Below are positions 3,466-62,968 of a stretch of DNA of 64,000 nucleotides, in pieces (position 1 is the stretch's first letter; every line of letters begins with the position of its first letter). Source of the stretch: a virus. The notes beneath the pieces were generated by a model that made no database searches, had not been told where the DNA came from, and saw only the letters and a list, made by a program, of their open reading frames with translations. Where the stretch lies: the IMG/VR virus record IMGVR_UViG_3300042691_039521, positions 1 through 64,000 of that record. One strand, given 5' to 3'. Position numbers and translations under genes: made by a program.

Positions 3466-3612
3466 TTACGCTGGATTTGTTCTCAGCCAACCACACTTAG
3501 GACACTGATTCACACCTGGAGCTAAAACAAACTTGCATTGCTCACCGTCAGGTTTTTTATGGAAATCAAACGTGAACGTTTTAGGTGGTTGATCAAAAGG
3601 ATCGTCCGTCAT
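3466..3612 (-). CDS. Small CxxC zinc-ribbon-like protein
   Basis: This 48-residue protein (begins MTDDPFDQPP) carries one Cys at about residue 26 and a C-terminal CPKCGW knuckle. Its start overlaps the stop of the lysozyme-like gene by ATGA, so it is the last gene of the - strand operon. It is probably a small zinc-binding protein of unknown role. Confidence 0.6.
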   Translation of the reverse strand: MTDDPFDQPPKTFTFDFHKKPDGEQCKFVLAPGVNQCPKCGWLRTNPA

Positions 3613-4361
3613 AAACGATATGCGTTCAGAATACGGTCAATATATTCGTTAGGTCTACGTTCGATAGTAGACCAAGAAGGTAGCCAAACATCTGGCCGAC
3701 CAGCAGCAATCCACTGCCTAGCTCCACCTATACCAAGGTTATAGGATGCTACTTGATCACGAATATTATCCCCCAAATACAGTGAAGCAGTGTAGAGATA
3801 ATTTTCAATAAAGTCTATCGCCCAATATGGATCAAAAGCTTCTTGCATGGAAACCCTAGGATGAGCAATTGTATTGACTTGTGCCAAGCCCCAATCGTTC
3901 TTATCGGCATATCCAACCGCACCTGGGTCCCAACCACCCTCATAGTACAATATGCCCCAAATGGCGTGCCACTCATCATCATCCTGACCATCTACAACAG
4001 GTAGGAACATTAAAGTTTTCATTGTATTCGGGCCAACAACCCCATCAACTTTAATTGAACCAATTTTCTGTAACTTCTTCACGGCATAATCTGTGTCCGG
4101 ACCAAATACGCCATCAACTTTGATAGAAACACCAAGACCATCACAGTCGTTCAGAAGTCTCTGAATAGCTTTCACACCATAATGAACAGCAAGTTCATCT
4201 AGCGGAATTGGTTGACCATCAATAAAACGGAGAACGGCTGCTAACCCAGGCTTGTTCCATCCTTCGCCTAAAAGATAATATTTGCCGGGAGTTGTGGGGT
4301 TTTTAAGAGTTCCACCTCTACCGTCTGATGGCCACGCTCCACGTCCTTGTCTTTCTAACAT
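3609..4361 (-). CDS. Peptidoglycan-binding lytic transglycosylase-like lysin
   Basis: This is a 250-residue cell-wall enzyme. Residues about 50-115 form a peptidoglycan-binding domain type 1 with the repeated hallmark VDGVFGPDTDYAVKKLQ and VDGVVGPNT. Residues about 130-245 resemble a lysozyme/SLT fold: YYEGGWDPGAVGYADKNDWGLAQVN has the Glu, Gly-Leu-Ala-Gln and aromatic residues of that group, followed by ASYNLGIGGARQWI. There is no signal peptide. A second muralytic gene (CHAP type) lies at 43841, so this one may act in lysis while the other acts in the virion, or the reverse. Confidence 0.8.
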   Translation of the reverse strand: MLERQGRGAWPSDGRGGTLKNPTTPGKYYLLGEGWNKPGLAAVLRFIDGQPIPLDELAVHYGVKAIQRLLNDCDGLGVSIKVDGVFGPDTDYAVKKLQKIGSIKVDGVVGPNTMKTLMFLPVVDGQDDDEWHAIWGILYYEGGWDPGAVGYADKNDWGLAQVNTIAHPRVSMQEAFDPYWAIDFIENYLYTASLYLGDNIRDQVASYNLGIGGARQWIAAGRPDVWLPSWSTIERRPNEYIDRILNAYRL

Positions 4362-4362
4362 T

Positions 4363-4539
4363 TTATCCTACTTTCTTCCAAAAGAATACTGTAATGTATG
4401 GTTTGCCGTCTACGACCTCGGGACCGTTGACGGCAATAAAATCTTTCATACCTTCAAATACGGCTTTTGTTTCTCCTTGCCCAAGAATACCTTGACATGG
4501 AAGTTTGAGCCAAGCTAATTTGTAACTATTCCCACTCAT
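4363..4539 (-). CDS. Small hypothetical protein before lysin
   Basis: This 58-residue protein (begins MSGNSYKLAWLKL) ends one base before the lysin start and overlaps the upstream gene. It has no recognised family. A GGGTAAAAG-like sequence precedes its ATG. It is supported by operon continuity. Confidence 0.55.
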   Translation of the reverse strand: MSGNSYKLAWLKLPCQGILGQGETKAVFEGMKDFIAVNGPEVVDGKPYITVFFWKKVG

Positions 4540-4801
4540 TAACTTTTACCCATTCTGTTATCGTAACCTCTTTAGGGAAAACTGTATATACATTTGACGG
4601 TTCAAAATCTATTTCTGCGTCTCCAGCACCACAGTAATATGTAAAAGCATAAAAGGGTGTCGTCCCATCTTTTGAAGTAAATACAACTTCTTCATCAAAG
4701 CCCCAACGACGTTCGCCTTTATTATTTGTGGCGACAATAACCCATTTATCGGAAGCGTCCTCTGCAATTTTTTCTAGCTCTAGTTCTGAGAACTTAATCA
4801 T
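4526..4801 (-). CDS. Small hypothetical protein
   Basis: This is a 91-residue protein read from the ATG at 4801 (MIKFSELELEK). An in-frame ATG upstream at 4903 would run deep into the previous gene and is not favoured. The protein is aromatic- and acid-rich and probably beta-rich (TPFYAFTYYCGAGDAEIDF). No function is assigned. It overlaps both neighbours by a few bases. Confidence 0.55.
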   Translation of the reverse strand: MIKFSELELEKIAEDASDKWVIVATNNKGERRWGFDEEVVFTSKDGTTPFYAFTYYCGAGDAEIDFEPSNVYTVFPKEVTITEWVKVNEWE

Positions 4802-5045
4802 AGTATTCTTTATCCTCGTCAAATAAATTTGTTTCTTCACCATCTCTAGCATAACGATATCCGCTGAGAATGATTCTATTTCCTTTAATTTCGAATTCAT
4901 CATCGAAATCTATTTCTTCCCAAGCATCTAGGATTTGATCCATTAATATTTTAATACGAGAGTCTTCAAAATCAAATGGATCTTTAATTGTTTTTATTAC
5001 ATGAACTTTTTTCAATTCTCGTTCTACGCTTCTTCTTCTAGCCAT
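4794..5045 (-). CDS. Small charged hypothetical protein
   Basis: This is an 83-residue protein starting MARRRSVEREL at 5045. AGAGGAAAGAAAGAA just before that ATG decides the start over the longer in-frame option at 5087. It has a basic N-terminus, an acidic body, and is probably helical then beta. No domain is recognised. Confidence 0.55.
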   Translation of the reverse strand: MARRRSVERELKKVHVIKTIKDPFDFEDSRIKILMDQILDAWEEIDFDDEFEIKGNRIILSGYRYARDGEETNLFDEDKEYYD

Positions 5046-5206
5046 TTCTTTCTTTCCTCTAAGACTTTCGCTCCAGTATTCATACATTCAACCCAGTGAT
5101 CTACCTCATCTCCAGAGAAGTATTCTGACACAACTTCAAAGATAGTGTAGTTTCCCTCTGCTATGTACCACCGTCTTTCGTGATATATTTTTCTAAAATC
5201 ACCCAT
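5024..5206 (-). CDS. Small hypothetical protein
   Basis: This 60-residue protein (MGDFRKIYHERRW...) is rich in Trp, Glu and Lys. It overlaps the upstream gene by 8 bases and the downstream gene by 22. No family is recognised. Confidence 0.5.
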   Translation of the reverse strand: MGDFRKIYHERRWYIAEGNYTIFEVVSEYFSGDEVDHWVECMNTGAKVLEERKKWLEEEA

Positions 5207-5324
5207 GATGTTTCTCGCAATTCTTGAATAGATGGTTAAGAATTACAGCGTCAGGTTCTTCTGCATCAGAGTATTCTAGCAAAATCCAGCAATCTGGACA
5301 TCTTGTTTTATTGATCTTTTTCAC
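5199..5324 (-). CDS. Very small Cys/His protein with GTG start
   Basis: This 41-residue protein begins VKKINKTRCPDCW. It starts at GTG behind a strong AAAAGGAG ribosome-binding site and ends inside the next start (ATGGGTGA). CPDC near the N-terminus and H..F..NCEKHHG near the C-terminus suggest one zinc-finger-like site. Its small size makes this less certain, but the ribosome-binding site and overlaps fit a real gene. Confidence 0.55.
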   Translation of the reverse strand: MKKINKTRCPDCWILLEYSDAEEPDAVILNHLFKNCEKHHG

Positions 5325-5342
5325 AGGATAAACTCCTTTTAT

Positions 5343-5807
5343 TCACAGGGAAACGCCTATAACGTCTATGTTAGCTTCGTTAAACAGACCTAAAGTAACG
5401 TCTTCTCCAAGACGTTGGAAATCTTCTTTTAGATACACTATTCTAGCACATCCAGAGTTAACAATCAACTTGGCACAGTTGAAACATGGCCAACCGTTGA
5501 CATATAATGTTCCACCTTGACGCTTAAATGGATCTGAAACTGATAGACAGTTTTGTTCAGCATGGTTGGAGTAGCAGAGTCCATCACCATAATCGTATGG
5601 TGTTCCCGATGGAACATTGTTTATTGCTCTTGGACAGCCACCCCAATCACAATGCTCAAACCCTGAAGGTGTCCCATTATACCCTGTTGCGTTGATAATC
5701 CCATATCTATCAACAATTATTGCCATGTATTGTTTTTTGGAACAAGTGGAGAAAATCTTTGCACCATCAATACACCATTGCATCCATTTTAGATCTTTAT
5801 TTTCCAT
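5343..5807 (-). CDS. Deoxycytidylate (dCMP) deaminase
   Basis: This is a 154-residue protein of the zinc cytidine/dCMP deaminase fold. His82-Ala-Glu84 (HAEQN) gives the zinc ligand and proton shuttle, and PCFNC (Cys108, Cys111) gives the other two zinc ligands. GYNGTPSG at about 42-49 is typical of dCMP deaminases. It converts dCMP to dUMP, the substrate of thymidylate synthase. ThyX is encoded at 12132-12920 and ribonucleotide reductase at 17597-20872, which complete a phage dTTP supply. Confidence 0.92.
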   Translation of the reverse strand: MENKDLKWMQWCIDGAKIFSTCSKKQYMAIIVDRYGIINATGYNGTPSGFEHCDWGGCPRAINNVPSGTPYDYGDGLCYSNHAEQNCLSVSDPFKRQGGTLYVNGWPCFNCAKLIVNSGCARIVYLKEDFQRLGEDVTLGLFNEANIDVIGVSL

Positions 5808-6186
5808 ATTGTTGTATAAATTCTACAAAAATGTCCTGTAACTTAATTCCGTTTATTTTCAATTTATCATTACTTAATTTTATTTTAACTGGAAATTTAG
5901 AATAATGAAGATTACGACAGGCTATATACCGATGGTTACCATCAGAAAGAATGATACCATTTTGCCCTATTGTTATCTCTGCGGGGTTTATTAGCCCACG
6001 TCTCTGAATATCAGCCATAAGTTGGCCAATATATATTTTATCCTTAAAGTTGGTTTCATTGGAAATTTTTTGGTCAACAATTTTTTCCATGATAACCATC
6101 GGTATGTAAATATAATCTTTAGGTTTTTCTATTTGTAAATTTTCAGGATTTTCAAACTCTAAAAATTCACAACCCCAATTTTCCAC
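5797..6186 (-). CDS. ParB/sulfiredoxin-fold-like protein
   Basis: This 129-residue protein contains the core ParB N-terminal (sulfiredoxin-like) pattern: GLINPAEITIGQNGIILSDG followed by NHRYIACRNL. The (D/E)GxHR-type strand-turn (SDGNHR, about residues 81-86) is the nucleotide-binding and catalytic signature in that fold. It lacks the helix-turn-helix of plasmid partition proteins, so it is more likely a phage enzyme (CTPase, nuclease or kinase-like) than a partition protein. It overlaps the dCMP deaminase by 11 bases. Confidence 0.65.
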   Translation of the reverse strand: MENWGCEFLEFENPENLQIEKPKDYIYIPMVIMEKIVDQKISNETNFKDKIYIGQLMADIQRRGLINPAEITIGQNGIILSDGNHRYIACRNLHYSKFPVKIKLSNDKLKINGIKLQDIFVEFIQQYGK

Positions 6187-6190
6187 TTAT

Positions 6191-7240
6191 TTAGAGTGTA
6201 ACTGATTTTGGATCAACCATCAGTTGTCGGAACTTGATTAATGCATCACCGGAAAGTGGCACGCCACCATTCAAATTCGTGTCGAAGTAACACGAACCGG
6301 GGGAGCCAATCTCAATAAGATGATTATACCATTCTTGCATTTCTGCTGCGCCCGAGGCTGTATGATCCTTATTGCCCCATTCACCTATTGCAATTCTTAT
6401 ATTTTTTTGCTTACAGAAGGCAAGTGTATTCAACCACATTTGAGTTTTTTGAGTAGTTGAGCTTGCTTCTACGTAATGGTCGATACCCATAAAGTCCCAA
6501 ATACCATCTACCCAATAATCTGCGGGATTCCGCCCACTACGTGTGTCCCAAGTCCATGCCATTAAAATTGGGGCGAATGCTACATTTTTAACTCCGGAAG
6601 CATTAAGCAGTTGACGAATATGTGTTTGCATAGCCCGCCAATCAGGTTCTGTACCCTGTCCCTCATCTGGATATGCTGTGCCGTTTCCACCTTCTGGTTC
6701 GTGATGAACACTAAACCATACAGGTTTTTGTAGAGAACCAAGAGACTTGATTAAAGCGATTAGTTCATTATCTAGTTGTCCTGCTGCAGTGTTTTTCCAA
6801 GAAACACTTACCTTGTTAATATTTGTTAACTTAATTGAAACCCAAGGGAGACGCCCAGCGGTATGATCAGCTTTACATGCTGAAATTAGTGAGCTTGCTT
6901 GATCAAGTCTCCAAAATGTTCTACGAACGCCAACTGGCACCCCGGCCGCTGTTTCGTGTGGAGTTGGAATCCCATTAGACATATAACTACAACCCCAACG
7001 AATCTTTCCCGCACCTGGGTCGCCAGGAAACGTTAATGTTTGTGCAGAAGGTTCGGGAGTGGAAGAATTTTCTAGAAGTCTTAGACGATCCTTAATGTCT
7101 TGCATACCTAAAAGAATATCTCTATTTGATTCTGCTAATCCAGCAATTTGCTGGCTTTGTTCGGTAACAGTTTGGTTTAATTCATTGATTTGCTTTTGTT
7201 TTTCCTCTAAGAGAGGGAAAATATCTGGATCAACGCCCAT
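6191..7240 (-). CDS. GH26-like glycoside hydrolase with N-terminal coiled coil
   Basis: This is a 349-residue protein read from the ATG at 7240, which has AAAGGAGAAAAA before it; a longer frame to 7333 would run through the promoter. Residues about 10-60 form a coiled coil (heptads of I/L with Gln and Glu) and suggest trimerisation. The rest matches a (beta/alpha)8 glycosidase of the GH26 type. WFSVHHEPE near residue 178 should carry the acid/base Glu and IAIGEWG near 285 the nucleophile Glu. GH26 enzymes cut beta-mannans and related polymers. There is no signal peptide. It could be a tail-associated or released depolymerase. It is first in the operon from the 7271-7299 promoter. Confidence 0.72.
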   Translation of the reverse strand: MGVDPDIFPLLEEKQKQINELNQTVTEQSQQIAGLAESNRDILLGMQDIKDRLRLLENSSTPEPSAQTLTFPGDPGAGKIRWGCSYMSNGIPTPHETAAGVPVGVRRTFWRLDQASSLISACKADHTAGRLPWVSIKLTNINKVSVSWKNTAAGQLDNELIALIKSLGSLQKPVWFSVHHEPEGGNGTAYPDEGQGTEPDWRAMQTHIRQLLNASGVKNVAFAPILMAWTWDTRSGRNPADYWVDGIWDFMGIDHYVEASSTTQKTQMWLNTLAFCKQKNIRIAIGEWGNKDHTASGAAEMQEWYNHLIEIGSPGSCYFDTNLNGGVPLSGDALIKFRQLMVDPKSVTL

Positions 7241-7270
7241 TTTTTCTCCTTTATGATTAGTTCTATATAC

Positions 7271-7299
7271 AGTATATCGTATAAGTTCCATTTTGTCAA
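7271..7299 (-). promoter_or_regulatory. Consensus sigma-70 promoter, leftward
   Basis: On the - strand, TTGACA (7299-7294) and TATACT (7276-7271) are separated by 17 bases. It is placed to start transcription about 25 bases before the ribosome-binding site of the gene starting at 7240 and to drive the whole leftward operon down to 3466. Confidence 0.88.
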
Positions 7300-7301
7300 C
7301 T

Positions 7302-7321
7302 GACGATATTTGAATTGACAA
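7302..7321 (+). promoter_or_regulatory. Candidate WhiG/FliA-type promoter before phoH (site B)
   Basis: GACGATAT at 7302-7309 resembles the GCCGATAA -10 of WhiG/FliA sigma factors. A TAAG-type -35 (TAAGTTCC from 7282) lies 16 bases upstream, the spacing known for WhiG promoters. The second block, TGACAA, is a poor match to TAGGA. It lies 30 bases before the phoH start. I saw no sigma-70 promoter for this gene. Confidence 0.45.
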
Positions 7322-7351
7322 TCTATTTCCCAAGCGAAGGAGGGCGTTATT

Positions 7352-8617
7352 TTGCTCTATGTATTGGATACTTCAGTTATTCTTGCCGACCCGAAATGCT
7401 TAGAAAGGTTGTCTAACAAAAATATTATTATTCCACTTATAGTTTTAACAGAGTTGGAGGCTAAAAGAAATCATCCAGATCTTGGTTTTGCTGCTCGGTC
7501 TGCTTTAAGAAAACTTGAAGAATATAGAAAAATTAGAAACTTAACTGAAGAAATCCAAACAGAAAATGGTGGAACTTTACGAATTGAAGTTAATCATATT
7601 GATGAGTCTGGTTTACCGAAAGCCTTGCAGGTTCCAGAAAATGATAATAGGATTTTAGCAGTTGCATCTAATCTTTCAAAGAAATATGATGTTACCCTTT
7701 TAACAAAAGATTTACCTTTAAGATTAAAGGCTTCTATTGCCGGCCTTGAGGCTTCTGATTACAGAACAGATAACATTGATGTTGACTGGAGTGGTCTAGT
7801 TGAGGTTAGTGTATCAGAATATTTAATAGATGATTTGTATGAACATGGTTCTGTTTTCGTACATGATCTTGTTAAATATCCGGTGAATACAGGTATAATT
7901 TTGAAGTCTAGTAATTCTTCTAGTTCAGCTTTAGCGAGGCTAACTAAAAAGGGTGACGTTAAATTAGTTAGAGATACTCATTTATTTGATGTGAGAGGTC
8001 GAAGTGCTGAACAAAGAATCGCTTTGGACATTCTATCTGATGATAGCGTCGGAATTGTTTCTCTTGCCGGAAAAGCTGGTACAGGAAAATCACTTCTCGC
8101 TATCGCCGCTGGACTTGAATCAGTGGTTGAGAAAAGGTCTAAAAATAAAGTTACAGTGTTTCGACCACTTTATGCAGTCGGGGGACAAGATATCGGTTTT
8201 CTCCCAGGAACTGCTGAGGAAAAAATGGAACCATGGACCGCTGCAGTATTCGACGCTCTTGAAGCCTTCTGCGGACCAGAAGTTATCGAACAAGTAATTG
8301 AGGAAGAATTATTAGAAGTTTTACCTTTGACTTATATACGAGGAAGAACATTAAATAACAGTTTCATCATCATTGACGAAGCACAAAATTTATCAGAGAT
8401 GGTTCTTTTGACAGCATTAAGTAGAACAGGAAATAATGCAAAAGTAGTTATGACCCATGATGTTGGGCAAAGAGATAATCTCAGGGTGGGGAAATATGAT
8501 GGGATTTCGGCGGTTGTAAATAAGTTATCAGGAAATGAATTATTCGCACATATTACATTGAGAAAGAGCGAAAGATCGCCTATTGCCGAATTAGTTTCCA
8601 GCGTATTGGAAGGATAG
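7352..8617 (+). CDS. phoH: PIN-PhoH family ATPase
   Basis: This is a 421-residue fusion. Residues 1-150 are a PIN nuclease domain with VLDTSVILADP, an LTELEAKR strand, and the NRILAVA and LLTKDLPLR elements that supply the acidic residues. Residues 210-420 are a PhoH ATPase with Walker A GKAGTGKS (about 241-248) and Walker B FIIIDEAQN (about 338-346). The domain order matches bacterial YlaK/PhoH2 proteins, which couple RNA cleavage to helicase activity. PhoH is common in phages but its role is unclear. The start is TTG behind GAAGGAGGGCG; no ATG would keep the PIN N-terminus. Confidence 0.9.
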   Translation: MLYVLDTSVILADPKCLERLSNKNIIIPLIVLTELEAKRNHPDLGFAARSALRKLEEYRKIRNLTEEIQTENGGTLRIEVNHIDESGLPKALQVPENDNRILAVASNLSKKYDVTLLTKDLPLRLKASIAGLEASDYRTDNIDVDWSGLVEVSVSEYLIDDLYEHGSVFVHDLVKYPVNTGIILKSSNSSSSALARLTKKGDVKLVRDTHLFDVRGRSAEQRIALDILSDDSVGIVSLAGKAGTGKSLLAIAAGLESVVEKRSKNKVTVFRPLYAVGGQDIGFLPGTAEEKMEPWTAAVFDALEAFCGPEVIEQVIEEELLEVLPLTYIRGRTLNNSFIIIDEAQNLSEMVLLTALSRTGNNAKVVMTHDVGQRDNLRVGKYDGISAVVNKLSGNELFAHITLRKSERSPIAELVSSVLEG

Positions 8618-8619
8618 AG

Positions 8620-9522
8620 ATGAATTGGTATAAATTTCTTAAAAGCATTTTTGGAACAAAAACGGCTGATAAACTAACCAATTATCAGTATTGGACAATT
8701 CCGATGGCGGAAAACATCGACCCCCCTCGTATTAGAGATAAGGTATCTCCAGATGGATCAATAAATTGGGAACCAGAGGTCGTTGATCTATACGTAGATT
8801 TTCGCGGTCGCCCTATGGCTGATGGTGTAATGACCGGTAATGCTGCTCAGCTAGGCACGGATCAGTATCGCTCTCTTACGTGGGGTTATGCAATTTGGGG
8901 TCAGATTGGAGCGCAAAATCCTGAATATAAGACTAGAATCCCCAGACCAAAGAGTGGCTGGTACTGGATAACTGGTCATCCGGTTCCATCTTATGATGAG
9001 GGTTGCATTATTACAGAGCCTCATGCAACCCAAAAGATCATTCATGAGATGGTTCAGTTTGATCCAAATCAGCCAGAGAATGTATTGTCAAATCAAGCCT
9101 TGACATGGGGCAAATGGGTTAATGGTGATCTTGTAGCCGGTAAATCAAGTTCTGCTACTGGTGGTTCTATATCCACATATTTATGGACTCCTTGGTCAAA
9201 AGAGAATCCTCACCGTTTGTCAATAGTTGTTTGGGACTATATTGGTGCCGATGGCACTTATGTAGACAAGGGTGTTGAGGCGGGTCGCCTCATTATGCTT
9301 GATCCAAATAGTGAATCTTACAAGAATATGGTTGCTCTTGGTGGAGAATGTGCAGCTATTGCAAAGGCTGCAGCAGAGTTTGGTGTGTTGGTTGCTGATC
9401 GTAGAGTTGGAGTAGCGACCCCACAGGGTGGTTCTTTCAGAATTCAACCCGGTGGTCAGTGGCAGTCCACGAACCTTAATCAATTAAAGATTAAGCATAG
9501 CGATTTCGTGTACGCAAAATGA
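8620..9522 (+). CDS. Hypothetical protein of 300 residues
   Basis: I do not recognise this protein. It starts two bases after the phoH stop behind GGAAGGATAGAG and overlaps the next start (ATGA). It has no signal peptide or membrane segment. Trp, Tyr, Gly and Asp are abundant and beta-strand-like stretches dominate (SGWYWITGHPVPSYDEGCII, YLWTPWSKENPHRLSIVVWD). This looks like an extracellular or virion protein, perhaps carbohydrate-binding. It sits between PhoH and a lipoprotein gene, outside the structural module. Confidence 0.6.
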   Translation: MNWYKFLKSIFGTKTADKLTNYQYWTIPMAENIDPPRIRDKVSPDGSINWEPEVVDLYVDFRGRPMADGVMTGNAAQLGTDQYRSLTWGYAIWGQIGAQNPEYKTRIPRPKSGWYWITGHPVPSYDEGCIITEPHATQKIIHEMVQFDPNQPENVLSNQALTWGKWVNGDLVAGKSSSATGGSISTYLWTPWSKENPHRLSIVVWDYIGADGTYVDKGVEAGRLIMLDPNSESYKNMVALGGECAAIAKAAAEFGVLVADRRVGVATPQGGSFRIQPGGQWQSTNLNQLKIKHSDFVYAK

Positions 9523-10418
9523 AAAAGATAATTATTCTTATGGCGGCAATTTTGCTTATTGTAAGTTGTCAACCTTCTCCGACAGATGCACGGCGACCAA
9601 AGCCTACAACAACAAGTAGCACCACAACATCAACTACTACCACAAGTATAACTACGACAACAATTGTCGGCTCTGATTCAACTGCTGCTTTGCAAGCAGA
9701 CTTGAATGACGGGTCACTGTTTGTTGATCGTCAGTACATTGTGAATGGTATGCTGAAGCCGCCTGCTAACTCCATTATTACTTTTGGAACAAACGGTTCT
9801 TTTGTTAGAACCATTATCCCCACAGCAAATACCACGCCATTTATTATGATGGAGCAATCTGGTGTTACTATTAGAAATGCTCGGATTACTGGTACAAATC
9901 CATGCTACTGGACAAATACTATTACATATAATCCGGCTTCGATAGGAGAAAAGTATTCTCAGTGGGCCGCTGCTTCAGAGGAACAGGCAGCGTTCTATGT
10001 CAAAAACAAGGCCGGAAATATTATTATTGAGAATGCTATAGTCCGTGATGTATGGGGTGATGCCGTCACCTTATTAGATGCTGGATCTAATATTACTATT
10101 ACCAATCTTGACGCAAGATGTCTAGGTCGCTCAGGTATCTCTAATGTGAATTCAGATAGAGTAACGGTAACAGGAGGAAAAGTATCAGGTGCATTTTGGT
10201 GGGCGCTGAATATTGAGCCATTTAATACTCGCGTGGTATCGAATTACCGTGTAAGTGGAATGGAAATTGGTTACTCTAGAAACTATTGGCTTTTTGTTGG
10301 TGGTCCATATTTTAACTGTCAAGTATTTAATGTAGATGCTACTGGAAATACTTTATTACCAACAAGCAGTAGACCAGCACAAGTAAATAGTTGTGCTGTT
10401 TCTCAGGTGAAATATTAA
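9519..10418 (+). CDS. Phage-encoded lipoprotein with beta-helix domain
   Basis: This is a 299-residue predicted lipoprotein. A short basic N-terminus and a hydrophobic helix end in lipobox LIVSC, with lipidation at Cys17. A Thr/Ser-only linker at about 30-50 probably spans the cell wall and could be glycosylated. The rest has repeated short strands (SGVTIRNARITG, NIIIENAIVRDV, SNITITNLDARC, DRVTVTGGKVSG) typical of a right-handed parallel beta-helix, as in pectate lyases and tail spikes. It should be displayed on the infected host surface. Candidate roles are superinfection exclusion, receptor masking or glycan cleavage; none is shown. Confidence 0.75.
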   Translation: MKKIIILMAAILLIVSCQPSPTDARRPKPTTTSSTTTSTTTTSITTTTIVGSDSTAALQADLNDGSLFVDRQYIVNGMLKPPANSIITFGTNGSFVRTIIPTANTTPFIMMEQSGVTIRNARITGTNPCYWTNTITYNPASIGEKYSQWAAASEEQAAFYVKNKAGNIIIENAIVRDVWGDAVTLLDAGSNITITNLDARCLGRSGISNVNSDRVTVTGGKVSGAFWWALNIEPFNTRVVSNYRVSGMEIGYSRNYWLFVGGPYFNCQVFNVDATGNTLLPTSSRPAQVNSCAVSQVKY

Positions 10419-12920: not shown

Positions 12921-13023
12921 CTCGTTTTAAAACATTCCAATTCTGTAGTAGCCAAATAGTAAATATCACAACACCTAATACAACAATTATATCAGAAATA
13001 ACATCTAACCACAATATCAGCAT
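12913..13023 (-). CDS. Single-pass small membrane protein
   Basis: This 36-residue protein (begins MLILWLDVIS) is almost entirely one hydrophobic helix followed by a basic/acidic tail, KRDD. It starts on the last base of the stop of the GC-rich gene upstream (TAATG) and overlaps the thyX start. It lies exactly at the left edge of the GC-rich island. It could be a small regulator of a membrane process. It is short, so only moderately supported. Confidence 0.5.
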   Translation of the reverse strand: MLILWLDVISDIIVVLGVVIFTIWLLQNWNVLKRDD

Positions 13024-13490
13024 TATTTTTTCCTGTCGGGGGAGTGCCACGAGTCGGGTGCCTTCTGGCTTGGCGAGATGCCCCAGTGACGATCGGCGCA
13101 CGGCTGTTCCATGCTCTCGGAGTCGTCGCTCCCGCACGTCGGGCAGACCGACGGCCGAGCGGGGCGCACGGTGTCCTTCGTGCCTGAGATGCGGACGGCG
13201 TGGCGCAGTGCATCAGGCAGACGCTGGGCAGCCTCTCGCGCCTGCTGCAACCCGTCACTGATCGGCGTCTCCCCCTCGGGGTCCACCGACCCCACCGCAG
13301 CGGCCAGAGCGTCGGCAAGGATCTGTCGCACCCCGGCGGCGCCGGTTGAGTGCATCGCTTCCTCAACTGCAAGGGCGAGCGCCCGCAGGCGTGCGGCGGC
13401 GTCCACGGCCTCGTCCCGTTCGCGCTTCACCTCGGCGTAGCGTTCGGCCCAGTGATGCGGAGCCGGGTCCTCAGGCGTGGCGTCACTCAC
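13023..13490 (-). CDS. GC-rich-island coiled-coil protein with Cys motif
   Basis: This is a 155-residue protein read from the GTG at 13490, which overlaps the upstream stop (GTGA). An Ala/Arg/Glu-rich helical region (about 15-60) is followed by CPTCGSDD and later single Cys, His and Trp residues (EQPCADRHW, DSWHSPD). Composition and style are those of proteins from high-GC actinophages, and nearly every third codon base is G or C, unlike all neighbours. It is probably a recent transfer. Function is unknown; the Cys pattern suggests zinc. Confidence 0.65.
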   Translation of the reverse strand: MSDATPEDPAPHHWAERYAEVKRERDEAVDAAARLRALALAVEEAMHSTGAAGVRQILADALAAAVGSVDPEGETPISDGLQQAREAAQRLPDALRHAVRISGTKDTVRPARPSVCPTCGSDDSESMEQPCADRHWGISPSQKAPDSWHSPDRKK

Positions 13491-13622
13491 AGCGCCCTCT
13501 CCTTGGCGTAACAGGTCGAGCAGATGTAGGTGTTCCGCTTCGGGAACGGGCGCAGCTCCACGTTGAGTGGCAGGCCACGGCCACAGGTCCGGCAAGCGGG
13601 TGTGGCGTCACCCATCGGTCCC
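13035..13622. other. GC-rich island within AT-rich phage DNA
   Basis: Roughly 590 bases are about two-thirds G+C by eye, against about 40% on both sides. The change is abrupt: AT-rich sequence returns within about 15 bases at both ends. The island holds two complete - strand genes (13023-13490 and 13487-13615) whose starts and stops overlap the AT-rich neighbours. It looks like a cleanly inserted module from a high-GC relative. Confidence 0.8.
13487..13615 (-). CDS. Small zinc-ribbon protein of the GC-rich island
   Basis: This 42-residue protein (begins MGDATPACRTCGRG) has two CxxC knuckles: C8-x2-C11 and C32-x2-C35. That is a minimal zinc ribbon, a common small protein in actinophages. The ATG lies inside the stop of the AT-rich upstream gene (ATGGGTGA) and the stop overlaps the next GTG. 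Coupling is therefore perfect although the base composition changes here. Confidence 0.65.
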   Translation of the reverse strand: MGDATPACRTCGRGLPLNVELRPFPKRNTYICSTCYAKERAL

Positions 13623-16186: not shown

Positions 16187-16240
16187 AATCTTTCCTTTCG
16201 TCGCAGCGACTGTCGTTAGAATAGATAACGACAAGAAGAT

Positions 16241-16270
16241 ATTATATCACTTATCTTATTTTTCTGTCAA
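16241..16270 (-). promoter_or_regulatory. Consensus sigma-70 promoter, leftward
   Basis: On the - strand, TTGACA (16270-16265) and TATAAT (16246-16241) are separated by 18 bases. It drives the phosphoesterase operon. Its -35 is half of the inverted repeat shared with the rightward promoter at 16273. Confidence 0.88.
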
Positions 16271-16272
16271 AC

Positions 16273-16301
16273 TTGACAGGAAGTAAATAGTGTTATATAC
16301 T
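16273..16301 (+). promoter_or_regulatory. Consensus sigma-70 promoter of the non-coding RNA
   Basis: TTGACA (16273-16278) and TATACT (16296-16301) are separated by 17 bases. It points at a stretch of more than 400 bases without any gene. CTGTCAA and TTGACAG (16264-16279) are perfect inverted repeats with a 2-base gap, so the divergent promoters share a palindrome. Confidence 0.85.
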
Positions 16302-16307
16302 TGAAAA

Positions 16308-16625
16308 CGGAAATAAGTTTAAGCTAATTTACGAGAGCAGAGTGTCGTACCTCTGTCGGGCATCACGACGTTTGTGAGGCACATTCATGTGTAGGGCTAG
16401 CTTCGTCCTTAAGCACCAGTAAGCACCCAGATATAGAATCCGGCTTGTAACGGCAGACCTGGAAAGCATCTTGAACACGGATTCTATGATACCGTGATCG
16501 CTCCAACGATTCGATGTTCCGTCCTGACGCTGTTCCGGCGTATTTGGTTAGGCTCCCTTCAGGTGATGGCTCTAAAAAGAATGACCAAATCTCTCTTATG
16601 AGAATGCTTTTTTTCTCATGAGGGG
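16308..16625 (+). ncRNA. Candidate structured non-coding RNA, about 320 nt
   Basis: No reading frame of useful length exists here, but the region has its own perfect promoter. It is full of inverted repeats. AAGCTA (16321) pairs with TAGCTT (16398) around hairpins CAGAG/CTCTG, TCAC/GTGA and CACA-TTCA-TGTG. TAGAATCCG (16434) pairs with CGGATTCTA (16478), a perfect 9-bp stem. ATTTGGT (16542) pairs with ACCAAAT (16584). A terminal hairpin, CTTATGAGA/TCTCATGAG, lies at 16594-16622. The septamer AAGCACC is repeated at 16411 and 16421. I do not recognise it as tmRNA, RNase P RNA, 6S RNA or a cobalamin riboswitch. Confidence 0.5.
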
Positions 16626-16705
16626 GATTTAATTATTCACCGCTTAGGTTCCAGATAAAAAGAATAAGTCAGTATGTTTGTGCTGTCAATTCAACGGTTT
16701 GCGGT

Positions 16706-16734
16706 TTGACTGAGTGCGAATTTTGTGCTATAAT
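16706..16734 (+). promoter_or_regulatory. Extended -10 promoter of the sigma-factor gene
   Basis: TTGACT (16706-16711) and TATAAT (16729-16734) are 17 bases apart, with TGC just before the -10 (extended -10). It is 33 bases before the sigma factor start codon and so separates that gene from the non-coding RNA. Confidence 0.85.
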
Positions 16735-16766
16735 ATTGTGTAGTTTATTTGTTGAAAGGAGTATTC

Positions 16767-17549
16767 TTGATCTTAAAAAATAAGAAGAAATACTCTGAGC
16801 AGGAAAAAGAAATTCTTTGGAATAGATATAGGGAAGATAGAAATAATGTAAAAGTTTTTAATGAACTTTTGGAAGCGTATCTTCCTTTGTTGGAAGTTAT
16901 TGCTTCCAAATCCAAGTCGAATCTTCCTTCTCAGATCGAAATTGGTGATTTGTTGAATGATGGGTTTTTTGGTTTAGTTGACGCTATTGAGCGTTTTGAT
17001 GAAACTAAGGGCTGGAAATTTGAGACGTATGCTTCTAACCGTATTCGTGGAGAAATCAACGATCGTCTTCGTGATTATGATTGGGTTTCTCGTTATTCTC
17101 GTTTGAAGTTTAAGCAGGTTTCTCAAACGGAAACTTTTTTGGTGGAAGAGTTGCAGCGCCAACCGACTTTACAGGATATTGCTGACCGTTTGGGTTGGGA
17201 TGTATCTGAAGTGAGTAAGGTTCAGGCAGCTTTTAATAATTCTTATTCTATCAATATTGATGAGTATATTTCAGATTCAACTCATGAATCATTTTCTTTG
17301 AGCGAGATGATTCCTGATAGTTCTGCCGGTCAGGCTGGTTTTGATCTGGATGTTGATGATTTAACAAAAATTATTGAAAGAAAGATGTTTTCTCTTGCTG
17401 AACATGAATCTATTGTTGTTTTTCTTTATATTTATGAGAATATGACGTTTGAGGAAATTGCTGAGGCCACTGATTCTAAAGCATCGAAGGTTATGAAGAT
17501 TTTCAATGAAGCTATTTCTAGTTTGAGAGAAAATCTTGGGGTTTATTGA
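16767..17549 (+). CDS. WhiG/FliA-type sigma-70 family factor
   Basis: This is a 260-residue sigma factor of the group 3 (FliA/WhiG/SigF-like) type. Region 2 reads LWNRYRED, LLEAYLPLLEVIASK, IGDLLNDGFFGLVDAIERFDETKGWKFETYASNRIRG (too long to be chance), then the group's hallmark DYDWVSRYSR. Region 3 has RQPTLQDIADRLGW. Region 4 ends FLYIYENMTFEEIAEATDSKASKVMKIFNEAI, a helix-turn-helix for the -35. It should redirect host RNA polymerase to phage promoters with GCCGATAA-like -10s; such sites recur upstream of the head and tail genes. The start is the TTG at 16767 behind GAAAGGAG; a TTG six codons earlier overlaps that site. Confidence 0.88.
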   Translation: MILKNKKKYSEQEKEILWNRYREDRNNVKVFNELLEAYLPLLEVIASKSKSNLPSQIEIGDLLNDGFFGLVDAIERFDETKGWKFETYASNRIRGEINDRLRDYDWVSRYSRLKFKQVSQTETFLVEELQRQPTLQDIADRLGWDVSEVSKVQAAFNNSYSINIDEYISDSTHESFSLSEMIPDSSAGQAGFDLDVDDLTKIIERKMFSLAEHESIVVFLYIYENMTFEEIAEATDSKASKVMKIFNEAISSLRENLGVY

Positions 17550-38722: not shown

Positions 38723-39109
38723 GTGATGACTCCTATTAAGAAGGATTTAGAAATTTGGCAGGGTAAAACCTATGATGAGCCTTGGATTTTTGGTCGAGCC
38801 ATCAAAGATGAAACTGGTCAAGTTGTAGATACCGAGGTCACCAACCTTGGTGGCTATACTGGAAAGATGCAGTTAAGAGAATCTGTTGATTCAGAAGAAC
38901 CAACTTTAGAGCTTACTACCGAGAATGGACGTATTCTTATTGATGCAGAACATGGTGAGGTGAGATTGTTTCTTACTGCAGAAGAAACAGCCGCTTTACC
39001 TGTTGGATCTTATAAATATGATTTAGAGCTTATTACCGCTTCGGGTCGTGTTTATGGTCCGCTTTATGGAAAAGTTAAGGTTAGAGCAGAGGTAACACGC
39101 GATGCCTAA
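38723..39109 (+). CDS. BppU-like N-terminal-domain small tail protein
   Basis: This 128-residue protein has [69 protein letters not shown]. This pattern is common in small phage proteins related to baseplate upper protein (BppU) N-termini. It probably attaches fibres to the virion. It overlaps the collagen-like gene by 8 bases. Either of two ATGs can start it. Confidence 0.65.
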
Positions 39110-40694
39110 TTATATAGAAGATGATGACAATGAAATCATTTTCTTGGGCGAAGACGTAGAGACTACCGAAACACTTATTCCTGGTGAACCGGAAACTCTA
39201 TTCGTGCAAATGGGTCTACAAGGACCAGAGGGAGCGCAGGGTCCTGCTGGCGATGGTGGTACCGGGCCAACAGGCCCAAGCGGTCCCACAGGCCCACAGG
39301 GCGATCCTGGCGGCCCCACGGGGGCGACCGGTCCATTTGGGGCAACCGGACCATTAGGAGCGACTGGGGCGACTGGGGCTATAGGAGCAACCGGAGCAAC
39401 CGGTATACAGGGCGCTACTGGTGCCGCTGGTGAAGTTGGCTACACTGGACCAGTAGGTGCGAGTGGTGGCCAAGGAGCAACCGGTTCGGTCGGTGCTACT
39501 GGTGCTACTGGAGCACATGGTGCTACTGGTTCAATAGGTTTACAAGGATTTACTGGACCCGCTGGTCCGGCCGGCGCTACCGGCGTTCAGGGTGAGATTG
39601 GTGAAGTTGGAAATACTGGTCCGAGTGGTGCTACGGGAAATCAGGGTTTTACTGGCGCAATCGGATCAACTGGCGCAACCGGGCCACAGGGTTCAACTGG
39701 CGCAACCGGTCTTGATGGCATAACAGGAGCGACCGGTGCTTCGGGTCCACAGGGTGATATTGGTGCTACCGGTCCTGCCGGAGCAACTGGAATAGCTGGA
39801 TCTACTGGGGTGATGGGAGCAACTGGTTCGCAGGGAGCAACAGGCGCAACTGGCCCAGCAGGTGCAACCGGCTCCCAAGGAAACGCTGGTTTTACCGGAG
39901 TCCAAGGAGCAACTGGTCCGATCGGTCCAGATGGAGCCACTGGTTCGGTCGGTGCTACTGGTGCTACTGGAGTTTCTGGTCTAGTGGGAGCCACTGGCGC
40001 ACAAGGTCCTACCGGATCAACTGGACCCATTGGCGAAACTGGCGCTACGGGGGTTGGTTCTGCTGGTGCGACTGGTGCTACCGGTCCAGACGGTGCGACC
40101 GGACCACAGGGTACTTCCATTATCACTAATGCTTCTACGTATTCTAGCAACTTAGGCTATCATTTACCCGGCGTACTCTGGGATAGTCTTAATAATGCTG
40201 TTGCGGTTACCGCTAACACAATTCGTTATGTTCCATTTCTAATTAGGGCTGGGACATTGACGGTAGATCGTATTTGTTTTGAGGTGACCACTCTTCAGGC
40301 TAATAGTAATGCGAGAGTTGGGGTTTATACTGCTGACTCAACATGGCAACCAACTGGTGCTGCTCTTATTGACGCCACGGCAACAACTGCGACTACAGGG
40401 GCTAAAAATATTACTGTATCAGGGACATTGCCTGCTGGGCGCTATCTTGCATGTATAGTTTCCGATGCCAACATCAGCGTAAGATCTGGAGCAGCTAGAC
40501 CAACATGGGGAACTGATCACGCCGCTACAGTTGTGACCGCTCCATCTTCTGCTCAAATTATTACTAGTCGTAGTACCTCGCTTACCTATCCATCTTCATT
40601 ACCAAATTCGGGGCCAGCTTGGAACGCTATATCTGGTTCTGCAACTAATCCAAATACTGATCCACTTATCTTACTAAGGGGCACTTACTCATGA
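39102..40694 (+). CDS. Collagen-like fibre protein with long Gly-X-Thr region
   Basis: This is a 530-residue protein. After about 35 residues of N-terminal head comes about 300 residues of Gly-X-Y triplets (roughly 39210-40113), largely GAT, GPT and GPA, forming a collagen-like triple helix. The C-terminal 190 residues are beta-rich ([25 protein letters not shown]) and probably the globular tip. Thr at Y positions can be O-glycosylated, as in Bacillus BclA; the phage carries a glycan cassette. Likely a tail fibre or capsid fibre. Confidence 0.82.
39210..40113 (+). repeat. Collagen-coding Gly-X-Y repeat DNA
   Basis: Nine-base periodicity built from GGNGCNACN-type units codes for about 100 collagen triplets. 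It creates spurious antisense frames. It is also a hotspot for length change by recombination and for misassembly. Confidence 0.8.
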
Positions 40695-40978: not shown

Positions 40979-43690
40979 TTGTCTACTACTTATATTGTAC
41001 AAGGTAAACAAGGACCAGAAGGCGCCCAAGGGGCAACTGGTCCACAGGGTGCAACTGGACCTGCTGGTGGTGGGACAGAAGGTCTTTTTCGATCCCAGTA
41101 TCATTCTCTCTTAGAGGGAGAATATATTCTAGATGACGAAGATGGGGTTATTGGTGGCGCTGGAACAATCATTTTACCAGCGATTTCAGAAGACGAACAA
41201 GATCCTAGAGTCTGGGTTATATCCGCTTATAGTGGTGATATAATTCTTCAGACCGAAAATGAAGCACCTATATTTATTCTGGATAATCAAAGTCAGCAGC
41301 CATACACCATTTCGCAGAATTCTGTTATTCATCTTTTAAGATATGTTGGTGTATGGAGAATTATTTATGATTCTTCTGTAATTGGCGACGCTAACCCTAG
41401 TGCATCTGTTATTCCAGCATCTGTTATTTTATATTGTCCAACACTCACGGCTGAAGACCTAACACCAGCAGAAAATGATGTTATGTACTGGGTTGAGCGT
41501 ACCCCTAATCTAGTAACACCAGATCCAGATACTGGTTTATCTGACTGGACAACTCGACAGGTCTTTTCTTGGACAGAGGGTTGGGCCACGGATAATGATC
41601 CCATTAATGTCTTGATGATGGTCGATTCAGATAGTTGGTTCCCAACAATATTGGCAGAGGTTGTGCCTGATGGTTTTAGCGCCATTGAAGTTTCTGGCGG
41701 TCAGCCAATTGTTCTTGGTTGTGGCGGATCTGCTGATCCATCCGGTTCTATATGGTCGGGATGGAATGTTGGAGATAATATGGCTGGTGCTATTGATCCC
41801 ATGGAGCCAGCAACTCATATTATCCCAGTTGGTTTAACAGCGGATTTAATCAGGTTAGTAGATCGTTTTGGTTCTGGTGATCATGAAAATCTAGCCGATT
41901 GGTATAGTGCTGTCAATGAGGCTCTCAAACCATCTAATTCAATTACTAAAGATAGTGATATTTGGTATTTAAATAATACTTCCCTTCCAGTGGATCAGAT
42001 TTCTGTTTCTGTAGAGAGAAATATTATTGCAACTCACGAAGAACTTGTTGATGCTGGATTAGAAGCTTATTTTGATGGTTCTAGTGGCGGTTATATTAAA
42101 GATTTAAGAGGTAAAGTTTGGAATGCCAATTTTATGTCCTCTGAACAAAGCGGGTTTGTTCCCATTGTTGATGGAATCTTTATTTTCTCTGATGCAGAAA
42201 CCATTCCTATTTCTAATTTACCAGAGGGATATTTAGGTTCTGGTGGACCAATATATGATATTGGTAATGGTACCGGCATGATGATTCTTCACTTAGAGGG
42301 CGCTTATTATCAAAAATTAGCAGCAGCCAAAGTTGTTATGGATGCAAATGGTCCTGTTTCAGTAACATATCTTGGTGATATTTACACTTCATATATGACA
42401 GAATCAGCAGTTCAAGCTTTAGAAGATTGGATAGCTTCTGCTGGCTCTGGTATTTTCACTATTTTCAATGATTATATGTATGTGTATGGTGTTGATTATT
42501 TGGATTCTAGTGGCGTTCCAATTTATACTGTTGCCCGCTGCTCAACTTCGGATATAGTTAATGCAATTTCCAGTGACCAAGCACCACTTTTCTATAAGTA
42601 TTATAACGATGAGTGGACAGAACTTGGCCTTGGTGGAAATGCTTTTGATTTAGGACTTGATAGCCCAAGAGGTAATGGAGATATTGTTATTCTCCCCGAT
42701 GGTCGTTATCTTTGGGTAGGAATTAATAGTCCACTTGGAGATAATGTCTTAGCTTATTCAACTTCTTTAGATGGAATTGATTGGTCCCCATGGTACAATC
42801 TATTTGACCCAGAGCCAGCGACTGTAGAATGGATTTATTCTACTATTTGGACGGGAGATGAACAATTTACAAACGAACACAAAGTCACTGGTTCTCAGAT
42901 AAAAGTTATGATTGTTGAAGCAGATCTTGCTGATCGCTGGGGTACCAATCAAATTCTTGAATTCACACTTAGACCAGCCGTTGCTAATGTAAATCTCATA
43001 GACATGCAAGAATCTATAGATACGATTGAAGATAGCATAGCTGATCTTACGGGCTATGATCAAATGTTATTTAGAGAACTTAGACTTGGTAGTGCATCGG
43101 TTTCTCCTGGTGGTGAGACTATTGGATATATGGCAGCTATGGCTGGGGCATTATTCCTTTCCGAACCATATACAGATTCCCTAATTGATACGTCATTATT
43201 AGGCGATCCAGTAGCAACTGCTTGGGATGTTAGTTCTGATCTTAGTCCCTCTGCTCCTGATCCATATTCTTTGGTTTTTGACTGGGGAGCGCCAGGTGAG
43301 GGTCCAGGCGTTGATGGAGCTTGGAAGTCATCAATGGCCTTTGTTATCCCTCAGACCCCATCAGGATTAGATTTTGTTGGATTCAGACTTTTGGGAGTTG
43401 TATATGATGTTCAGGAACCATTAATTTATAATTCTCTAACAATTGCAGCGGTTATTCTTAATTTTGACGATTTTAGTCTTTCTCCAGGGGCAATGGAGGG
43501 TTATAGTGGGTCTTATTCTACATATGTGATGGTCGTTGATAAACCTGTTCCCGCTGGAGTTCCTGAAATTGGAGTATCTGGTAAGACGGCAGTTGTTGAG
43601 TTTAACTGGAATAATACTGATTTCACTCCTCCTGGGAGCTTAACGATCGACGCAATAGAACTTCTTTATAGAAACCAAATAGTCATTTAA
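40979..43690 (+). CDS. Large tail fibre / receptor-binding protein with short collagen motif
   Basis: This 903-residue protein is read from TTG behind AAAGGAGATAAG. Residues about 9-30 are a short Gly-X-Y collagen stretch ([13 protein letters not shown]...), a feature of fibre trimers. The long middle has repeated beta-rich blades (DDEDGVIGGAGTIILPAIS; DGRYLWVGINSPLGD; YSTSLDGIDWSPWYN) that resemble BNR/propeller-type binding domains. The C-terminal 180 residues are beta-rich (FDWGAPGEGPG...). It is probably the main host-binding fibre. Confidence 0.72.
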   Translation: MSTTYIVQGKQGPEGAQGATGPQGATGPAGGGTEGLFRSQYHSLLEGEYILDDEDGVIGGAGTIILPAISEDEQDPRVWVISAYSGDIILQTENEAPIFILDNQSQQPYTISQNSVIHLLRYVGVWRIIYDSSVIGDANPSASVIPASVILYCPTLTAEDLTPAENDVMYWVERTPNLVTPDPDTGLSDWTTRQVFSWTEGWATDNDPINVLMMVDSDSWFPTILAEVVPDGFSAIEVSGGQPIVLGCGGSADPSGSIWSGWNVGDNMAGAIDPMEPATHIIPVGLTADLIRLVDRFGSGDHENLADWYSAVNEALKPSNSITKDSDIWYLNNTSLPVDQISVSVERNIIATHEELVDAGLEAYFDGSSGGYIKDLRGKVWNANFMSSEQSGFVPIVDGIFIFSDAETIPISNLPEGYLGSGGPIYDIGNGTGMMILHLEGAYYQKLAAAKVVMDANGPVSVTYLGDIYTSYMTESAVQALEDWIASAGSGIFTIFNDYMYVYGVDYLDSSGVPIYTVARCSTSDIVNAISSDQAPLFYKYYNDEWTELGLGGNAFDLGLDSPRGNGDIVILPDGRYLWVGINSPLGDNVLAYSTSLDGIDWSPWYNLFDPEPATVEWIYSTIWTGDEQFTNEHKVTGSQIKVMIVEADLADRWGTNQILEFTLRPAVANVNLIDMQESIDTIEDSIADLTGYDQMLFRELRLGSASVSPGGETIGYMAAMAGALFLSEPYTDSLIDTSLLGDPVATAWDVSSDLSPSAPDPYSLVFDWGAPGEGPGVDGAWKSSMAFVIPQTPSGLDFVGFRLLGVVYDVQEPLIYNSLTIAAVILNFDDFSLSPGAMEGYSGSYSTYVMVVDKPVPAGVPEIGVSGKTAVVEFNWNNTDFTPPGSLTIDAIELLYRNQIVI

Positions 43691-60901: not shown

Positions 60902-62968
60902 ATGGCATTTCCACCACCAAATTATCCATATCAAGATAATGTGCATGATGTTGTTGCTGTTATTGTGAACGAGATTATTGCTGAGATTCAAGCTCACGAA
61001 GCCTCTCAGGTGAACGTTCATGGGATAACAAACACAGCTAATTTAGTCACCACAGCGTCTCTTACAGAGCTTGTGCAGGATATTGTGGCTGCACAATTTT
61101 CTGCTGGCACCCATGTAGGCGCAACAATCACATATAATGATGGTGATGGTTCACTTGATGTTGAAATAAGTGCGACTGGCGCTACTGGCCCACAGGGACC
61201 AATGGGATATACTGGACCCTCTGGCGCTACTGGCCCCGCTGGCGTTGGTGTTATTGGTGCAACTGGTTCTTCTGGACCCTCTGGCGCCACTGGCCCCGCT
61301 GGATCTACCGGAGCAACCGGTTCCGGTGTTACTGGCGCTACCGGAGCACAGGGTCCCGTAGGTGCAACTGGTTCTCGTGGCGCAACTGGTGCCACCGGCG
61401 CAGGAGCGACCGGTTCCACCGGGGCGACTGGGCCTGTCGGAGTAACCGGTGCAACAGGTGCTGGCTTTACCGGGGCGACCGGTGTTGCTGGCCCCACTGG
61501 TTCAGCGGGCGCAACTGGCGCTACCGGCGTTCAGGGAAATGACGGAATTGCGGGTCCAACAGGTGCGACCGGCCCGGCTGGTTCTCCTGGTGGAGCAACC
61601 GGACCCACTGGTCCAGTGGGGGCTACTGGCGCAGGCGCAACTGGTGCCACTGGTCCGCAAGGTCCAATTGGAGCAACAGGTGTAGCGGGTTCACCGGGTG
61701 GAGCAACGGGGGCAACTGGGCCAGTTGGGGCAACCGGCGCTGGCGGTGGTGGTGGGGTTGAATATTTTGAAATGACCACTACCGATCTTGATTTAGACCC
61801 TTCTTTATTTAGTGCTTATAATATTATCGTGGTTAAGTACAATGCAACCAAAAAAGCTTTTAGACTGCCGATGGCCAACGAGGTTCCAGCCGGAACTGTT
61901 TTTCATTTTTTCCAACACTGCGTAGATGGTCCAGCGCCAGATACTAACGTTTACGATGATCTTGCTGAGGTTGGCGAATGTTATATTGTTAGAAATGACG
62001 CCGGAACCGCTGCTCCATATTATCTTACAAGCCCTGTCGGTATTTGGGGTGATACTTTAAACGGAAATAACTGGTATGTCCAAGATTTTACTAGATCTAG
62101 TATTGGCGGAAGTTTAAGGCAAACAATTTTTATATCTGATGGCGCAAGTAATTGGACTAATCCTTTTGGAGAGTACATTACAAAACATCCCGAGTTTAAC
62201 TCTTCTTCGCTTGTTACTGCTACTGGTGGCTATACTCCAGAAATGGCGTTGGACCCAGCGGTTTTTGCTGTTAACAAGCCTGGGGCTTATGTTTTGGGTT
62301 CTGGTGGATATAATCCTATTGATTGGATTCCACAGCCAAATAGAACAGCGCTAGCTAGACCAACTACCTCAATTGAGGGTGTTTTTGGTGGAACCCCTGT
62401 TTACCCAGATTTTCCCGATATATGGAATGGCACCGATACCTTTGCTGTGCCCGGGGTGAACTTAACATCTATTGGCACTGTTTCTATCGGAACTAGAAGA
62501 TATTATTCGCCAATGAGGCTTGATATGCCAACGGGAATACAAGAGATAATGCTTGAGGTTACCAGTGCTGGCACTGAAACAGAAATTAAAGTAAGATTAT
62601 TTAAGGCCGATCGACACTGGCAACCAGATAATTTTTGGGAATATGATTATTTTTGGGATCTTGGCACTTTCAATGTTGTTGGCAATGGGGTTAAAAAGCT
62701 TCCTGTTGGTGGCTATTATAATGCTGGAAATTATATTATAGCTTATCAAGCTAATAATAGAGGAAGCTGTACCGTAAGAGAATGGAGGGGTTCTATGCCT
62801 GGATGGGGCGTAATTGGAACGGGTGGATCTACTAGTTTTATATCTCGTGGTAAATTTGATACCACAATCAGTAATGAGGATATTACCGACCAACCCTGGT
62901 CAGCATATGATACATCTAGTTATGGTCTATCTTGCCCTATTCTCTTTAGATATTCTTACGGGAGATAA
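60902..62968 (+). CDS. Collagen-like tail fibre protein
   Basis: This is a 688-residue protein. The N-terminal 85 residues are alpha/beta, followed by a Gly-X-Y region of about 190 residues (about 61170-61745) with GAGATG-type interruptions. The C-terminal 400 residues are beta-rich and Gly/Asn/Trp-rich ([28 protein letters not shown]), probably the receptor-binding tip. It sits between two distal-tail-like paralogues, so it is likely a side or central fibre. Confidence 0.78.
61170..61745 (+). repeat. Second collagen-coding Gly-X-Y repeat region
   Basis: GGNNCNACN-type codon repeats, partly shared with the repeat at 39210-40113 (many GGTGCTACTGG-like units). The two arrays are a possible substrate for recombination between fibre genes. 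Confidence 0.7.

Follow-up and report, generated by a model that had tools for sequence, protein, structure and literature searches.

A candidate structured RNA with compensatory base changes upstream of a phage sigma factor gene

Genomic context

What might a phage encode in a long stretch of DNA that carries promoters and no sizeable open reading frame? The question is raised by positions 16235–16748 of the sequence studied here (bases 1–64000 of IMG/VR virus record IMGVR_UViG_3300042691_039521, 80,527 bases in total; this whole 64,000-base stretch is called the window), which form its longest internal stretch in which no ORF reaches 75 amino acids. The ORFs inside it measure only 35–49 amino acids and none of them recurs in the related contig L002 (see below), the alignment with which shows frame-breaking indels and no conserved reading frame. 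An earlier note, made from the window alone, had rightly described more than 400 bases from 16302 onward as lacking a useful frame.

To the left of 16.2 kb the genes run leftward (metallophosphoesterase, ThyX-like thymidylate synthase). To the right they run rightward, beginning with a phage sigma factor gene (16767–17549, + strand; Sigma70 regions 2, 3 and 4) that has an inferred TTG start codon after AAAGGAG, and continuing with the large and small subunits of ribonucleotide reductase (nrdA and nrdB, with an HNH-type ORF between them), followed by glycosyltransferase-like and virion genes. Collagen-like GATG repeat proteins are found among the latter (39102–40694, 40979–43690 and 60902–62968). 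Elsewhere in the window, a block of about 600–690 bases with sharp edges (12921–13607) has 64–72% G+C in a phage of ~40% G+C, and no phage match was obtained for its 190-aa ORF; since its two flanking genes adjoin in a second related contig, L003, the block has the appearance of inserted DNA or of an assembly chimera.

Both contigs were found by searching with the sigma factor protein, which is 66% identical to its L002 and 57% identical to its L003 counterpart. L002 repeats the gene order of the window, with the metallophosphoesterase pointing left and the RNA, sigma factor, nrdA and nrdB pointing right. By inspection, L002 also carries intein-like insertions in endolysin-like, metallophosphoesterase and nrdA genes (574–2394, 3479–5362 and 6827–9658), which are missing from the metallophosphoesterase and nrdA of the window.

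Promoters and boundaries

The gap opens with a pair of divergent sigma-70-type promoters, as the earlier note had proposed. The leftward one, on the metallophosphoesterase side (16270–16241, - strand; TTGACA-18-TATAAT), matches the consensus at 12/12 bases and has its equivalent at 5476–5448 of L002. The rightward one, facing the ORF-poor stretch (16273–16301, + strand; TTGACA-17-TATACT), had been called perfect and is in fact one base short (11/12); its hexamers and spacing are identical in L002 (5478–5506). The -35 boxes of the pair form the inverted repeat CTGTCAA-AC-TTGACAG. Judging from the position of the -10 box, an RNA made from the rightward promoter would start at about 16307–16309. 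A further promoter, also anticipated, serves the sigma gene separately (16706–16734, + strand; TTGACT-17-TATAAT), with 12/12 equivalents in L002 and L003. Another inverted repeat, GTCGTTA-n7-TAACGAC, lies where the metallophosphoesterase transcript begins (16211–16233); it is kept in L003 (5203–5223) and nearly so in L002 (near 5408–5428), and may be an operator or a 5'-end hairpin.

Conservation and structure of the RNA

The minimum-energy fold of the window RNA does not clearly exceed what chance would give (z -1.77; 5 of 100 shuffled sequences folded as well), so a single sequence cannot settle the structure and the comparison with L002 carries the evidence. The RNA region aligns with it over its full length (16302–16667, + strand, against L002:5513–5863) at 63% identity, with blocks of 81–92%, and the conserved stretch thus reaches slightly further than the end at 16640 given before. 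The conserved blocks lie mostly in loops and linkers, which are nearly invariant, and the paired strands change together. In this one pairwise comparison, all that a family of two members allows, the core of the RNA has 12 double compensatory pairs against 2.4–2.5 in shuffled alignments, and the whole RNA 18 against 7.5–8.1; none of 200 column shuffles, which preserve the local identity pattern, reached either count. No significant excess was found in five coding windows or in the spacer between the RNA and the sigma gene (55% identical), used as controls.

Folding energies are less telling. Taken singly, the two sequences have weak minimum-energy z-scores (-1.8 and -0.6). The core favours the + strand (z -5.0, against -3.4 on the - strand), and one control window within the sigma coding sequence reached -4.1 with no excess of compensatory pairs; energy alone therefore does not discriminate and we have relied on the pair counts. 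Compensatory changes in a related phage were part of what the earlier note had staked its proposal on; having been sought against L002 and found, they leave it standing, and the non-coding stretch very probably gives rise to a real, folded RNA.

Near its 5' end come three predicted hairpins, P2 (16337–16356; GCAGAG/CTCTGT, in L002 TCTGGG/CCTAGA after a one-base loop shift), P3 (16379–16392; GCACA-TTCA-TGTGT, in L002 GCATC-TTCG-GATGT, two double changes) and P4 (16393–16409; AGGGC/GTCCT, in L002 AGGGG/CTCCT, one double change), the last with an invariant loop TAGCTTC. A conserved linker, CCTTAAGnACCAGnAAGCAC(n)CCAGA (16407–16431), follows and contains TAAGCACC twice, at 16410 and 16420, the positions of the repeated AAGCACC noticed earlier. 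The main stem, P5 (16432–16488; arms 16432–16441 and 16479–16488), has changed in step from TATAGAATCC/GGATTCTATG in the window to CATAATCAAC/GTTGATTATG in L002, with five double changes, a count that no shuffle out of 200 attained. It includes the perfect stem TAGAATCCG/CGGATTCTA, first described as 9 bp long and here given 10-bp arms (16433–16442/16478–16487), an inner stem P5a (16443–16446/16464–16467; two double changes) and a conserved loop, TGTAAnGGCAGACCTGG. A putative pseudoknot joins 16317–16323 to 16470–16476 inside the P5 loop; it has 7 bp in both phages and four double changes, equalled in 1 of 200 shuffles.

Downstream of P5, the alignment places a 23-nt insertion relative to L002 (16493–16515) which, reading from the sequence, may form a hairpin of its own (GATCG/CGATT). 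Hairpin P7 (16527–16541; ACGCTG/CGGCGT) has two double changes, its core pairing going from ACGCT/GGCGT to ACAGC/GCTGT in L002, and is flanked by the conserved GTTCCGTCCTGAC and GTATTTG..TAGGCTCC.TTCAG. The terminal hairpin of the earlier description is the long P8 (16579–16638; arms 16579–16604/16613–16638), in which the 3' strand is conserved (GGGGGATTTAAyTATTCACCG) and the diverged 5' strand mostly still pairs in L002. We considered P8 as an intrinsic terminator and ruled it out, since its T run sits in the loop and not 3' of the stem. Beyond it, GAATAA (16662–16667) can pair with 16633–16638 in place of 16579–16584, as can the corresponding CTATTC/GAATAG in L002, possibly giving an alternative fold.

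Searches for known families and further homologues

None of the 4227 families of Rfam 15, among them tmRNA, 6S RNA, RNase P, riboswitches, GOLLD and ROOL, matched the window at the gathering cut-off, nor did any match L002 or the 515-base gap stretch of L003 described below; permissive matches in the window (E 0.8–3.8) were to unrelated families below the cut-off and were discarded. Together with the compensatory stems, this supports the original suggestion of a structured RNA outside the described families.

Searches of the viral, genome, phage and plasmid collections brought up no third homologue. Apart from L002, three DNA patterns built on the conserved blocks gave only chance matches in viral sequences (12 and 53 stretches for the first two, and at least 120 for the third, the statement holding there for the matches listed), and all 16 stretches matched in genomes were due to chance. 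Searching phages and plasmids with the RNA by blastn gave no match, and a covariance model of the core found no second copy in the genome of the window or the L002 contig and no match in L003, distant sigma relatives or the terminase relative GX15bay. Protein searches were equally sparse. The sigma factor (as single sequence and profile) and a small conserved neighbour protein recovered only L002 and L003 among viral contigs, and the sigma profile had no relative among genomes; the putative terminase led to one fragment, and the metallophosphoesterase also led to L005, from which the RNA is absent by blastn and covariance model.

L003 has the sigma gene, and by both sequence and covariance-model search the RNA is missing upstream of it. 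What stands beside its sigma gene is a stretch of 515 ORF-poor bases behind a promoter-like site (5436–5950, - strand), which folds strongly (z -4.3). In being long, structured and ORF-poor, and in occupying the corresponding gene gap of a related phage, it resembles the window RNA, from which it differs in lying on the opposite strand and in having no similarity by sequence or model. A twister-P1 match within it (5685–5629, E 0.054) was rejected, since it scored far below the cut-off and the sequence expected at the cleavage site was missing. That an unrelated structured stretch should occupy this place is a hint that the site itself may have a general role.

Possible roles

The reading that we prefer, with a probability of about one half, is that of an early, free-standing structured RNA of ~340 nt which presents invariant elements to a partner. 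Host RNA polymerase would transcribe it early in infection from the near-consensus promoter, which points away from the metallophosphoesterase operon, and the RNA, up to its putative 3' end, would act on its own as a compact scaffold made of P2, P3, P4, the pseudoknotted P5 domain, P7 and the long P8. Displayed on this scaffold would be the invariant loops and linkers, namely TAGCTTC, CTTAAGnACCAGnAAGCAC, TGTAAnGGCAGACCTGG, GTTCCGTCCTGAC and the conserved strand of P8, and the partner binding them might be a protein, another RNA or further copies of the RNA itself. Three observations favour a free-standing molecule: a strong promoter dedicated to the sigma gene is present in all three phages, conservation ends before that promoter, and L003 manages without the RNA.

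The closest competitor, tentative and clearly behind but to be taken seriously, would make the RNA a long leader at the 5' end of the sigma mRNA, setting how much of the early transcript extends into the sigma gene or is translated to sigma factor; the gene would then have a second, internal promoter. The RNA lies directly upstream of the sigma gene and in the same orientation in both the window and L002, and no conserved intrinsic terminator separates it from that gene, into which transcription may continue. Moreover, YTATTC (16633–16638) can pair with either an upstream GAATGR or a downstream GAATAR in both phages, with matching changes, and the two conserved GAAT motifs flanking TATTCACCG could give alternative folds. 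It is this pairing and the missing terminator that keep a leader in play. Against it, the conserved block ends at about 16640–16667 and the sigma promoter begins only at 16706 (the distance is ~70–110 nt in L002), the spacer between them falls outside any conserved structure, and the sigma gene of L003 has no such RNA.

Much less probable is a replication element, with an origin region where the leftward and rightward operons part and a transcript that would form an R-loop or primer RNA. The RNA does lie where gene direction switches and where cumulative GC skew turns from flat to steadily rising, and a structured stretch occupies the operon divergence of L003 as well; however, the skew follows gene strand anyway and has its minimum near 7 kb rather than at the RNA, the structure favours one RNA strand, no iteron-like repeats were found, and the primase-like genes (named by sequence inspection only) are ~57 kb distant. 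A ColE1-like pair of primer and antisense RNA was also considered and rejected, as the promoter-like site on the - strand (16689–16661) is missing at the corresponding place in L002. Weakest of all, and very improbable, is the reading as conserved promoter or operator DNA with chance inverted repeats and no functional RNA, which would suit fold energies near the shuffled mean in each sequence but not 12 compensatory pairs where 2.5 are expected (0/200 shuffles, and controls without excess), nor conserved blocks that lie mainly in loops and linkers.

A bolder extension of the free-standing scaffold, which we regard as unlikely, though less so than a replication element, is that it represents a new class of phage RNA machine, retained beside the sigma gene in this group of phages and swapped in a relative for an unrelated structured RNA on the opposite strand. 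If true, the site would be a slot for ornate RNAs active in early infection, for instance on host RNA polymerase or host defence. In any case, the conserved promoter, clear stems, invariant loops and fixed gene neighbour make of this RNA a defined object to express, to probe and to pull partners with.

Comparison with known RNAs

Riboswitch-like structured leaders of bacterial or phage regulators resemble this RNA in preceding a regulatory gene and running in line with it, but here a separate promoter follows the structure and no known riboswitch family matches. 6S RNA would fit a link to sigma factors and RNA polymerase; apart from the missing Rfam match, the conserved helices of the window RNA make up several short hairpins and one stem with a pseudoknot, not a long hairpin with a single large central bubble. 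The phi29-type pRNA is an early phage non-coding RNA with hairpins and loop pairing, traits that our RNA would share if it is early as proposed. Ours is nevertheless larger, has no Rfam match and, instead of a genome end, occupies a point inside the genome where operons diverge, with the putative terminase gene ~13 kb away.

Few large structured RNAs of phages are known, most of them with no assigned function, and it is with these that we sort the present one, not as something categorically new, because its action is so far deduced. ROOL and GOLLD are large, ornate RNAs of phages and prophages, many GOLLD members exceeding 800 nt, which are frequently, not universally, found near tRNA genes and assemble into homo-oligomeric cages (PMC12286853). 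The earlier suggestion of a GOLLD- or ROOL-like RNA holds only as an analogy: the window RNA has no match to them in Rfam, is ~340 nt long, has no tRNA genes nearby (none in the window or in L002) and sits upstream of a sigma gene. Like them, it appears to be a phage-encoded non-coding RNA of unknown function with many stems and a pseudoknot, and in spirit, if not by homology, they are its nearest counterparts.
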